Shown: positions 12,607-16,611 of the stretch, piece after piece
How the letters are laid out: each line of letters starts with the position of its first letter
Position numbering within the stretch: the stretch's first letter is position 1
Source: Streptomyces showdoensis
Lineage (GTDB): Bacteria; Actinomycetota; Actinomycetes; Streptomycetales; Streptomycetaceae
Assembly (NCBI RefSeq): GCF_039535475.1
Contig: NZ_BAAAXG010000026.1
Location: forward strand, 1 to 64,000
Direction: 5' to 3'
Length of the DNA: 64,000 bases
Notes under the pieces: model-generated
What the model was told of the DNA's origin: nothing
Databases searched by the model: none
The model's input: the letters and a program-made list of their open reading frames with translations, nothing else
Position numbers and translations under genes: made by a program

Positions 12607-14830
12607 TCACGCCCATCCGCTGGGTGGCCCGGGTGAGCGCCACGTACAGGTCGTTGATCCCGTGCGTGGCGCCGTCCCGGATGCCGTCGGGGTCGACGAC
12701 GAGGACGGTGTCGAACTCCAGGCCCTTGGCCTGGCGCGGGTCGAGCAGCACGACCGGCCGGGTGAGGTCGGGCTTCGGCCCGTACGAGGCGTCGGGCAGG
12801 GCGGCGAGCAGTGCCGGGTGGAGGGCGACCGGGGCGATCACCGCCAGCCGGCCCTCGCCGCGCGGCTCGGCGGCGACCGCGTCGGCGGTCTCCTTGACCG
12901 GGTCCTCGACGGTCCGGTCCCAGGGTTCGACGCCGGTGGAGCGGACCGAGCGGGGCGGCTCGAAGGCCGGGTCGGCGGCGCGCCGCACCTCGGCGGCGAC
13001 GGCCATGATCTCGGCCGGGGTCCGGTAGTTGACACCGAGCCGGACGAGCTCCCAGCGGTCCTCCACGTACGGGGCGAGAATCCCCTCCCAGGAGCCGACG
13101 CCGGCCGGGTCGCCGGTCTGGGCGGGGTCGCCGACCAGGGTCATGGAGCGGGTCGGGCTGCGGCGCATGAGGAGCCGCCAGGTCATCGCGGAGAGCTCCT
13201 GGGCCTCGTCGACGATGATGTGCCCGAAGGCCCAGGTGCGGTCGGCGGCGGCGCGCTCGGCGGCGCTGCGGTGGTCGGCCTCCTCGTGCCGTTCGGCGAA
13301 GCGCTCGGCGTCGATGATGTCGTGCGCGGAGAGGACCTCGGAGGCGTCCTTGTCGAGCTCCTCCTTGTCCTCGAACTCGTAGGTGCGGGAGGCGAAGGAG
13401 ACGTCGAGGACGCCCTGCGCGTACTGGATCTGCTTCTGCCGCTCGGCCTCCTCGGCGGCGCGGGCGGCGGAGTCGTCCTCGCCGAGGAGTTCGGCGGCCT
13501 CGTCGAGCAGGGGCACGTCGGCGGGGGTCCAGGGGCCGTCTCCGGTGCGCCGGATCTCCTCGGCGTCCGCCTCGTCCAGGTGGGTGGGCTCGGCGAGGTA
13601 GTCGGCGAGGAACTCCTGCGGGGTGAGCTCCGGCCAGAGGGTGTCGAGGGCGGCGTGCACCTCGGGGTTGGCGGCGACGCCCTTGGCCAGCAGGGCGCGG
13701 TCGTCGGGGCCGAGGAAGTTCGGCCCGCCGTAGGGGTCGGCGCCGATGCGGTCGGCGAGCTGCTCGGCCAGGGCGTCGAGGACCTGGAAGACGAAGTAGG
13801 GGCGGGCGAGGTTGTGCGGGAGGAAGGTCTCGCGGGCCTTGTGGCGGGCTTCGAGGGCCATGTCCCAGTCGATGACCAGGTCGCCGTCCTCGTGCGGGAC
13901 GGTCAGCGGCTCGCCGCGCTCGGGGACCTGCTGGCGGTCGCGCACGGCGGCGGCGAGGGCCCCGGCCATGACGGCGGAGCCCTTGACGGCCGCGGCGCGG
14001 GGGGTGTCGGTGCCGGTGGCGCGGACGCCGGGGAAGAGCTCGCCCGGGGTGGCGAGCAGGACGCCGGTCTCGCCGAGGGAGGGCAGCACGTTGCCGATGT
14101 AGCCGAGGAAGGCGGGGTTGGGGCCGACGATGAGCACGGCCCGCTTGGCGAGCTGCTCGCGGTGGGCGTAGAGCAGGTAGGCGGCGCGGTGCAGGGCGAC
14201 GGCGGTCTTGCCGGTGCCGGGGCCGCCCTCGACGACGAGGACCCCGCGGTGCGGGGAGCGGATGATGGCGTCCTGCTCGGCCTGGATGGTCTGCACGATG
14301 TCGTGCATGCGGCCGGTGCGGGCGGCGTCGAGCGCGGCGAGCAGCACCTCGTCGGCGTCCCGGCTCTCGTGCCCGGTGCGGGTGGCGTCGGCGAGGTCGA
14401 GCACCTCGTCGTGGAGCGAGACGACCTCACGGCCCTGGGTGGTGATGTGCCGCCGGCGGCTGAGGCCCATGGGCTCGTATCCGGTGGCGAGGTAGAAGGG
14501 CCGGGCGATCTCGGCGCGCCAGTCGACGACGAGGGGGGTGCGGTTCGGGTCGTCCTCGCGGATGCCGATCCGGCCGATGTGGTGGTCGCGCCCGTCCTGG
14601 AAGACGAGCCGGCCGAAGCAGAGCCCGGTCTCGCCCGCGTTGAAGGCGGCCAGCAGCCCGGACTGCTCGGCGACGAGCACGTCCCGCTCCAGCCGTGCCT
14701 GCGCGCTGCCCTCCCCGGAGGTGGCGAGCGCCCGCGCGACTCCGGCCTCGGCCTGGTCCCTCAGGTCGTCGAGTCGTGCGTACAGCTCGTTGATGAATCG
14801 CTGTTCGTTCCGAAATTCCTCGGTTGACAA
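12593..14830 (-). CDS. helR: HelR/HelD-type RNA polymerase-associated UvrD-like ATPase
   Basis: A 745-residue superfamily-1 helicase-like motor. Members bind RNA polymerase and remove it from stalled or inhibitor-bound complexes; actinobacterial HelR proteins protect against rifamycins. Walker A is GGPGTGKT (residues 202-209) and the DEAQ box sits in [11 protein letters not shown]. Motif III-like [10 protein letters not shown] and VNYRTPAEI follow. The N-terminal helical arm (residues 1-60) resembles the secondary-channel arm of HelD proteins. The start appears to be TTG 14828-14830, after GGGAG. This codon overlaps the -35 box of the divergent glycosyltransferase promoter. I am sure of the family and less sure of the HelR role. 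Confidence 0.88.
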
Positions 14831-14853
14831 TTCGACTCCCGGCGCGATACAGT
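14824..14853 (+). promoter_or_regulatory. Strong sigma-70-like promoter of the glycosyltransferase gene
   Basis: TTGACA (14824-14829), 18-bp spacer, TACAGT (14848-14853). The consensus -35 is rare in this GC-rich window, and the box overlaps the helR start codon on the other strand. The predicted transcript starts near 14860, leaving a leader of about 125 nt. Confidence 0.7.
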
Positions 14854-14870
14854 GCGTGTATTGAACTTCT

Positions 14871-14897
14871 CCGTGTCTTTTCCATGTCCAGACACGG
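14871..14897 (+). promoter_or_regulatory. Leader stem-loop before the glycosyltransferase attenuator
   Basis: Perfect 8-bp arms CCGTGTCT (14871-14878) and AGACACGG (14890-14897) with an 11-nt loop. It lies in the 5' leader upstream of the terminator and may be an operator, a sensor stem or part of an anti-terminator. Confidence 0.5.
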
Positions 14898-14923
14898 AAT
14901 CTATTAATATACGCGAGACCCCA

Positions 14924-14956
14924 CCCCGACTGTCCATTCTAGTCCGGGGCTTTTTT
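14924..14956 (+). terminator. Intrinsic terminator in the leader (attenuator)
   Basis: The stem CCCCGACT (14924-14931) pairs with AGTC-C-GGGG (14941-14949) with one bulged base. It is followed by C and six T (14951-14956). It lies between the promoter and the start codon at 14987, so full transcription needs readthrough. Canonical T-tract terminators are uncommon in Streptomyces, which makes this one notable. Confidence 0.7.
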
Positions 14957-14986
14957 GTGTCCGCGGACGATGACGGGGGAAACGTC

Positions 14987-16207
14987 ATGCGTGTGGTGCT
15001 GTCGGCGTACGACTCGCGCGGGGGTGTCGAGCCGCTGGTCGGGCTCGCGGTGCGGCTGGGCGGACTCGGCGCCCGGGTGCTGGTGTGCGCGCCGCCCGAC
15101 GAGGAGTTCGCGAAGCGGCTCGCCGGGGTCGGGGTCGAGATGGTGCCGACCGGGGCCTCGGTGCGCGACCTGGTGAGCGGCAAGGTCCCGCCCTCGCCCG
15201 GCGGGGTGCCCCGACGGGCCGCCGAACTGGTCGCCGCGTTCCACGAGAACGTCTCCGCCGTGGCGGAGGGGTGCGACGTGCTCCTCGCGACCGGCCTGGT
15301 CCCGGCCGTGGCCGGGGTGAAGTCGGTGTCCGAGAAGCTGGGCATCCCCTACGTCTACGCGAGCTACCAGCCGGTCAGCCTGCCGTCCCCGCACCACCCG
15401 CCGATCCCGCGGCCCGGCCGGCCGCTCCCGGCGGACGTCACCGACAACGCGGCGCTGTGGCGGCGGGACGCCAGGGACGCGCAGGACGTGTTCGGCGAGG
15501 CGGTCAACGGCCACCGGGTGTCGGTCGGCCTGCCGCCGGTGGACGACATCCGCGACCACGTGTTCACCGACCGGCCGTGGCTGGCCGCGGATCCGGTCCT
15601 CGCCCCGTGGCGGCGGCCCGCGGAGCTCGACGTGGTGCAGACCGGCGCGTGGGTGCTCCCGGACGAGCGCCCGCTCCCCGCCGGCCTGACGGCCTTCCTG
15701 GACGCCGGCGAACCGCCCGTGTACGTGGGCTTCGGCAGCGTGCCCGTACGCGATCCGCACGAGGTCGCCCGGGCGGCCGTCGAGGCGGTCCGGGCGCACG
15801 GCCGCCGGGTGCTGCTCTCGCGCGGCTGGGCCGAGCTGGCCCCGGCCGACGCCGGGGACGACTGCTTCACGGTCGGCGAGGCCAACCACCAGGCGCTGTT
15901 CCGCCGGGTGGCCGCCGTCGTGCACCACGGCGGCGCGGGCACCACGACCACCGCCACCCGGGCGGGCGCGCCCCAGGTGATCGTGGCCCAGGGCGGCGAC
16001 CAGCCGTACTTCGCCGAGCGGGTCTCCGCCCTGGGCATCGGCGCGGCGCACGAGGGCCCGACGCCGGCCTTCGCGACCCTGTCCGCCGCGCTGGGGACGG
16101 CCCTGGCCCCGGAGACCCGCGAGCGGGCCGCCGCCGTGGCCGCGGACTTCGACCAGGACGGGGCGGCGACGGCCGCGCGGCTGCTGGCCGGGATCGCCGG
16201 GCGGTAG
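14987..16207 (+). CDS. GT1 family glycosyltransferase (MGT/antibiotic-type)
   Basis: A 406-residue GT-B enzyme expected to move a nucleotide-activated sugar to a small-molecule acceptor in the cytoplasm. The N-terminus MRVVLSAYDSRGGVEPLVG resembles vancomycin-type glycosyltransferases. The C-terminal donor motif is HHGGAGTTTTATRAG (His313 first), followed by QGGDQPYFAERV. ATG 14987 follows GGGGGA with a 6-base gap; longer in-frame starts lie at or before the transcription start. It diverges from helR. GT1 enzymes of this type are known to inactivate rifamycins and macrolides, but the acceptor here cannot be told from sequence. Confidence 0.88.
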   Translation: MRVVLSAYDSRGGVEPLVGLAVRLGGLGARVLVCAPPDEEFAKRLAGVGVEMVPTGASVRDLVSGKVPPSPGGVPRRAAELVAAFHENVSAVAEGCDVLLATGLVPAVAGVKSVSEKLGIPYVYASYQPVSLPSPHHPPIPRPGRPLPADVTDNAALWRRDARDAQDVFGEAVNGHRVSVGLPPVDDIRDHVFTDRPWLAADPVLAPWRRPAELDVVQTGAWVLPDERPLPAGLTAFLDAGEPPVYVGFGSVPVRDPHEVARAAVEAVRAHGRRVLLSRGWAELAPADAGDDCFTVGEANHQALFRRVAAVVHHGGAGTTTTATRAGAPQVIVAQGGDQPYFAERVSALGIGAAHEGPTPAFATLSAALGTALAPETRERAAAVAADFDQDGAATAARLLAGIAGR

Positions 16208-16260: not shown

Positions 16261-16611
16261 CTACGCCCGGGACGGCTCCAGGACGTCGGCCAGCTCCTCA
16301 AGGAGCCGGCGCTTGGGGCGGGCGCCCACCAGCGACCTCACGGGCTCGCCCCGGTCGAAGACCAGCAGGGTCGGGGTCCCCAGCACCCCGTACCGCACCG
16401 TGGTGAGCGGGTTGTGGTCCACGTCCATCTCGACGATCCGCAGCCGCTCCTCCCCCACCTCCGCCGCGATGGCGCCGAGCACCGGCTTCAGCTGCCGGCA
16501 CGGTCCGCACCACTGCGCGGTGAACTTCACGAGCACCGGCGTTCCGGCGCCCAGGACCTCGGTGTCGAAGTCCGCGTCCGTGACCTGTGCCAGGCCCTCC
16601 GCGTACGTCAT
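16261..16611 (-). CDS. trxA: Thioredoxin
   Basis: A 116-residue cytoplasmic thioredoxin that reduces protein disulfides. The active site is WCGPC (residues 34-38) in KFTAQWCGPCRQLKPV, and the cis-proline loop is VLGTPTLLVF. The length is that of a single-domain thioredoxin. Its ATG overlaps the MerR stop as ATGA, so the two are translationally coupled and it is probably a target of that regulator's own promoter. I cannot say which thioredoxin paralogue of the organism it is. Confidence 0.93.
   Translation of the reverse strand: MTYAEGLAQVTDADFDTEVLGAGTPVLVKFTAQWCGPCRQLKPVLGAIAAEVGEERLRIVEMDVDHNPLTTVRYGVLGTPTLLVFDRGEPVRSLVGARPKRRLLEELADVLEPSRA

Follow-up and report, generated by a model that had tools for sequence, protein, structure and literature searches.

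Which gene is served by a near-consensus promoter that lies between divergently oriented helD and glycosyltransferase genes in Streptomyces showdoensis? A preliminary description of the window (the whole 64,000-nt stretch of DNA analyzed) had recognized a promoter TTGACA-N18-TACAGT, a GC stem followed by T6, and an ATG at 14987, and interpreted them as an attenuator-type leader that induces the glycosyltransferase, and helR with it, when RNA polymerase or ribosomes are disturbed. The promoter and the ATG were both confirmed (Table 1), and a pattern scan for TTGACA-N16-19-TANNNT returned the promoter, here called P_anti, as the single match in 64 kb (0.01 expected from shuffled sequences). The stem with its T6 tract is also present, but it is weak: the arms (14924-14932 and 14940-14949) contain one bulged C, the hairpin reaches -11.6 kcal/mol when folded alone, and it escaped the automatic terminator scan. 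The region 14858-14990 folds better than its own shuffles (z = -3.03). Missing from the description was a second promoter, P_helD, which was found facing P_anti on the other strand (14936-14906).

Table 1. Features of the helD upstream region and adjoining genes in the window
Feature	Positions	Strand	Remarks
Core HelD, class II RNA polymerase recycling factor, 745 aa	12593..14830	-	
helD start codon TTG (14830-14828) and codon 2 TCA (14827-14825)	14825..14830	-	overlap the antisense -35
Antisense promoter P_anti	14824..14853	+	-35 TTGACA 14824-14829, -10 TACAGT 14848-14853
Predicted start of P_anti	near 14860	+	predicted
Predicted antisense RNA, ~97 nt	14860..14956	+	both ends predicted; without conserved ORF
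Inverted repeat between the two predicted starts	14870..14898		would form the beginning of the helD mRNA and an early part of the antisense RNA
Predicted start of P_helD	near 14899	-	predicted
Sense promoter P_helD	14906..14936	-	-35 TGGACA 14936-14931, 19-nt spacer, -10 TATATT 14911-14906
Intrinsic-terminator-like hairpin 14924-14949 with T6 14951-14956	14924..14956	+	contains the sense -35
Rgt-like glycosyltransferase gene between trx and helD	14987..16207	+	window without exact RAE core
Thioredoxin gene	16261..16611	-	start predicted

helD and its neighbors

The window HelD matched four HelR/HelD models, each time below the cut-off (best, 713.7 of 1100 bits), and its best PDB relative is 6yxu, labeled RNA polymerase-associated HelD. 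The preliminary description was right about a link to RNA polymerase. The gene that it named helR encodes a class II HelD homolog; the HelR of this genome that is linked to a rifampicin-associated element (RAE) is encoded elsewhere. An exact RAE core at C3:36091 lies shortly upstream of a separate HelR-type gene, whose coding sequence falls into two reading frames in the assembly (NF041254, 627.9 and 426.1 bits); the split (L293 940-3107; G000:C3, ~36.2-38.3 kb) is either a true break or an assembly fault. An exact-form search located the RAE core, CTTGCGGCAAG, twice in the genome and nowhere in the window, and RAE control of the window locus was rejected because the exact core is not there. 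At the gathering threshold, Rfam yielded a single match in the window, a che1 RNA (RF02935; 37332-37425, minus strand, 91.5 bits), and an Rfam family at the helD upstream site was likewise rejected.

A core helD match (E ≤ 1e-150) was found in 279/295 genomes of the genus. Thioredoxin genes directly precede helD on the same strand in 16/30 flanks (up to 1.5 kb), at a distance of 146-200 nt; in three (the window, L037, and L046) thioredoxin is located behind a divergent gene, and 11/30 lack it. In L046, a gene that by eye resembles threonyl-tRNA synthetase (positions 1-1500) replaces the helD promoter and the first 74 codons, through either rearrangement or an assembly fault. The idea that P_anti usually serves a divergent gene was rejected, given that only 8/30 flanks (L031, L035, L037, L042, L046, L052, L054, and L055) carry a likely reading frame on the opposite strand within 700 nt, and that these frames differ in kind. 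S. coelicolor SCO5438 is named trxA2 in a passage of PMC9952706 and, since a thioredoxin gene adjoins helD, the window helD was taken to be of the SCO5439 type; we infer that SVEN_5092 is the S. venezuelae counterpart. Open-access passages naming SCO5439, SVEN_5092, or SCO5438 give no start sites for them. Peaks in untagged ChIP-seq controls often mark busy promoters. The untagged S. venezuelae control described in a passage of PMC3781837 has a peak upstream of sven5092, which is one indirect sign of activity.

The glycosyltransferase matched NF000354 over its whole length with 504.4 bits, which places it with the rifamycin-inactivating kind, as had been suggested; the score is under the curated cut-off of 800, so the protein is called Rgt-like. 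Its best PDB relatives are GtfB, GtfA, and GtfD. The proposed tie to other helR-glycosyltransferase loci was not borne out: among the best 80 of 525 rgt relatives, a set that may omit the nearest kin of the window gene and in which 12/80 loci are incomplete, none has a core helD beside rgt within the available flanks. HelD proteins are encoded in 38 of these flanks, and none was counted as core helD because they are only 33-45% identical to that of the window. An exact RAE core stands 71-97 nt upstream of rgt in 55 of the same best 80 of 525. In the close relatives L201, L203, L204, L206, and L208 no RAE was found by exact core or by eye, and the upstream sequences of these five differ; rgt may lose the RAE often.

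A DNA search with 14795-15010 gave matches in 100/295 genomes of the genus. Among the matches listed, none other than that of the window itself passes query position 178, and rgt begins at 193, so rgt is outside the conserved element. Judged from its distribution, the element belongs to helD, not to rgt, and genomes without such a glycosyltransferase gene at this place retain it in front of helD, contrary to its description as a glycosyltransferase leader. In L037, a divergent ORF (MNAFDAARS...) lies between trx and helD and begins immediately after the antisense terminator, in the manner of the window rgt; the layout may therefore have been adopted more than once.

Two facing promoters at the start of helD

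Conservation was assessed in 119 non-redundant Streptomyces helD upstream sequences: 29 from 30 loci found by helD protein match (L046 was dropped, its helD start being missing), 80 from further protein-match rows among those listed for the 279 matching genomes, taken by rank with some skipped, hence a non-random draw, and 10 from the DNA search, hence biased towards the element. P_anti (TTGACA-N17/18-TANNNT, opposite helD and overlapping its start codon) is present in 119/119, and in 109/109 once the DNA-search sequences are excluded and only those located by protein match are counted. Its spacer is 18 bp in 106 sequences and 17 bp in 13, and its -10 hexamer occurs in 28 different versions. 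Across the 106 with an 18-bp spacer, the -35 and the T, A, and last T of the -10 are invariant, and the information content of the three inner -10 positions is 0.49-0.73 bits. In an offset control, TANNNT lay at spacer 17-18 in 119/119 and at any other offset in no more than 13/119.

The antisense -35 also reaches into the protein-coding sequence. Codon 2 of helD is TCA in 119/119, and TCA accounts for 7/661 serine codons (1.06%) in the bodies of 29 helD genes. The scripts searched for TGTCAA, which presupposes this codon; it counts as evidence only because the search succeeded in all 119 and because the start codon of 118 leads into the helD frame with no intervening stop (L083 has no exact placement). 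The start codon is TTG in 118 and GTG in one.

Opposite P_anti, a sense -10 was sought 30-110 bp away in Streptomyces, with a choice that favored TATATT and spacers of 18-19, and the best candidate has a TATATT -10 in 111/119. Its -35 is TTGACG, TTGACA, TTGCGG, or TTGCGC in 95/119, and its spacer is 19 (77 sequences), 18 (40), or 17 (2). P_anti has the better -35 and P_helD the more constant -10. The gap from -10 to -10 is 50-55 bp in 96/119, with 52 bp in 44; of the other 23, 19 have 60-65 bp and one each has 68, 72, 76, and 91 bp. No gap of 56-59 bp occurs, and the clusters at 50-55 and 60-65 bp differ by about one helical turn. When the sequences were grouped at 80% identity, 32/38 clusters contained a member with a 50-55-bp gap. 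With a 52-bp gap and starts 7 nt after each -10, the predicted starts are ~40 bp apart, a distance that would leave just enough room for two polymerases to face each other. As read from sequence, two convergent sigma-70-type promoters thus stand upstream of helD at co-occupancy distance. A pattern describing the whole pair was run against 61 genomes and matched exactly once in 30/37 genomes of the genus, the window included, and in 0/24 from outside it; the reversed control gave 0. By coordinates, at least 18 of these 30 matches are at helD starts.

Outside Streptomyces, the antisense promoter was first spotted by eye. A strict pattern (TTGACAA-N5-CTCC-N6-9-TANNNT) run over 197 genomes of the class matched in 22, once each, with 2 matches for the reversed control. 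One match was elsewhere, and the 21 at helD starts came from 16 Streptomyces, four members of genus g68, and one of g65. HelD (1e-100) is encoded in 116/197 of these genomes; the strict pattern is therefore missing from the majority of HelD genes outside this clade. Within g68, P_anti was found in 8/8, all at helD, and the nearest facing TANNNT is 38, 39, 39, 41, 42, 44, 57, and 77 bp away, so the spacing is not kept there. In a second family, f39, the strict pattern occurs in 13/41 genomes (13 genera), in all 13 at helD, and the other 28 are without it; the pattern itself requires TTGACAA and CTCC, and codon 2 is therefore no evidence in this family. The f39 -10 gap is 48-54 bp (median 51) in 13/13, sought within 35-75 bp. 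A GC hairpin followed by T4-7 was found inside the gap in 10/13 by script and in L331 by eye, and none was found there in L326 and L332; these terminators are predicted to end the antisense RNA at ~30 nt.

Terminator, antisense RNA, and competing explanations

An alignment check for covariation of the stem had been suggested, and the arms of the terminator do covary in the 94/119 sequences with clear arms. Around the sense -35, the inner pairs are Watson-Crick in 3.94 of 5 positions, against 2.40 when arms are shuffled among sequences, and the outer pairs in 3.51 of 4, against 2.34; these shuffled-arm controls ignore the kinship of the sequences. Clear CCCC/GGGG arms are missing in 25/119. On the antisense strand, a terminator-like hairpin was measurable in 96/119, and all were at or below -8 kcal/mol. 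The T-tail score was 2.80 in the antisense direction versus 1.88 in the sense direction, the antisense being better in 80/96. The sense strand is T-rich too: at least four T in eight were counted in 90/96 antisense and 79/96 sense tails. A further terminator-like hairpin lies between the promoters in 17/119.

The hairpin between the predicted starts scored 21.1 in the 119 relatives, versus 14.5 for shuffled sequences, and exceeded all 20 of its own shuffles in 57/119; a 6-bp stem is a weak criterion by itself at this place, since 77% of shuffles have one. The inter-promoter sequence is hardly conserved, with 106 distinct arm pairs in 119. An ATG ORF of at least four codons was found on the antisense strand in 22/119 (ATG starts counted), none sharing a common peptide, and uORF attenuation was rejected for want of such a peptide.

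We consider it likely that, of two face-to-face sigma-70-type promoters at the start of core helD, one interferes with the other, much as in the rifampicin alarm of Bacillus. P_anti, sitting atop the helD start codon, would read away from helD, and P_helD would read into it. P_anti would make only a short RNA, ended at the intrinsic terminator, and its firing would interfere with P_helD and keep helD low. Less productive initiation at P_anti, caused by arrested or scarce polymerase, would then release helD, as in the class I helD of B. subtilis. Because the layout matches that of Bacillus as far as sequence can tell, we infer transcriptional interference here; transcription from both promoters, the signal, and read-through beyond the terminator are likewise predicted. 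In the window, rgt would be read from P_anti only by polymerases that pass the antisense terminator, or else from a promoter invisible to the sigma-70 consensus scan. Should the Bacillus model apply, rifamycin would decrease and not increase transcription from P_anti, so that rgt and helD would not be raised together as had been proposed.

Three other explanations were weighed against promoter interference. Attenuation of the glycosyltransferase gene, in which antibiotics relieve a leader terminator and so turn rgt on, suits the window taken alone: a promoter, a ~97-nt leader, and a terminator precede rgt, the consensus scan of the + strand over 14000-16000 called no promoter besides P_anti, and the divergent ORF of L037 likewise stands behind the terminator. 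It is nevertheless unlikely, with RNA structure judged from single folds, in view of the 0/80 rgt loci with an adjoining core helD in their available flanks, the retention of the element where rgt is missing, and the lack of a uORF common to the 22/119 relatives with an ATG ORF. Equally, P_anti might give rise to a small RNA with an activity of its own, exerted in trans or through pairing with helD mRNA, and the antisense RNA would indeed be structured and complementary to the helD 5' leader. The barely conserved inter-promoter sequence and a predicted f39 RNA of ~30 nt make this improbable.

There is little chance that the conserved blocks around the helD start direct translation or bind a protein and are not a promoter at all. 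The Shine-Dalgarno sequence and the start codon do fall within the P_anti stretch and are almost as invariant as its -35. A promoter, by contrast, predicts both a TANNNT with a free middle held 17-18 bp from an invariant TTGACA, and kept in the 13 sequences that are one base shorter, and the rare codon TCA in 119/119.

Relation to known systems and significance

In B. subtilis, the sense promoter of helD, and likewise of pps, faces a stronger antisense promoter with starts 39 bp apart, and the terminated antisense RNA measures ~90 nt (Sudzinova et al. 2026, PMC12802891). The same account holds that, at low levels of rifampicin, polymerase is arrested on the heavily used antisense promoter, which leaves the sense promoter free. 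The Streptomyces element resembles this published alarm in having its helD promoter faced by an antisense promoter, with predicted starts ~40 bp apart against the published 39, and in a short terminated antisense RNA, here predicted from the DNA. It differs from the system described for Bacillus class I helD in serving a class II HelD, in Actinobacteria, and in the position of its antisense -35 within the start codon and codon 2 of helD. The terminator also differs from the published one: in Streptomyces it carries the sense -35 in its loop, and in f39 it would end the RNA at ~30 nt. In 17/119 Streptomyces and ~11/13 f39 sequences, and unlike in Bacillus, the antisense RNA is predicted to stop short of P_helD. 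The authors of PMC12802891 state that convergent promoters are not a feature of every helD gene and that Actinobacteria have the RAE. Their survey was confined to pairs within 300 bp upstream and free of overlap with other annotations, a filter that may have dropped the Streptomyces helD pair. Among the matches listed in searches of open-access literature, none described convergent promoters for helD of an actinobacterium.

Of the five helD genes of S. venezuelae, only SVEN_6029 was induced by rifampicin, in a passage of PMC8655204 citing Surette et al., which makes rifampicin doubtful as the signal for the core helD paralog. Convergent promoters with antisense RNA are also found in Streptomyces in the scbA-scbR switch of S. 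coelicolor (PMC3134472). There, the convergent genes are signaling genes, unlike the helD pair, and the passages describing them do not mention a short self-terminated antisense unit. The RAE of actinobacterial helR, rgt, and rox is likewise a palindrome overlapping a promoter -35; unlike the RAE, GGGGGGCTTGCGGCAAGGCCCCC with its near-fixed core, the helD element has arms that run from C to G and covary. In ribosome-mediated attenuation, as in resistance genes of actinobacteria, a leader and a terminator stand upstream of a resistance-type gene. Unlike such attenuators, the helD element has no common uORF and no link to a resistance gene.

Spacing is shared by two families although the intervening sequence differs, which makes interference between polymerases testable by small changes, and a terminator placed for a ~30-nt RNA suggests that the act of transcription, and not the RNA, does the work. 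We tentatively propose, as a possibility that goes further than interference itself, that actinobacterial core helD carries a regulator-free gauge of polymerase traffic, in which the idle, self-terminating transcripts of an antisense promoter at the start codon, some no longer than ~30 nt, would keep P_helD shut. If so, helD would rise whenever productive initiation falls, and helD genes of two phyla would share the face-to-face spacing despite unrelated sequences and independently of the RAE. The proposal concerns a helD paralog for which the literature consulted, in the passages that name it, describes no regulation, and it would extend the Bacillus rifampicin alarm of 2026 to Actinobacteria, a group said to use another system.
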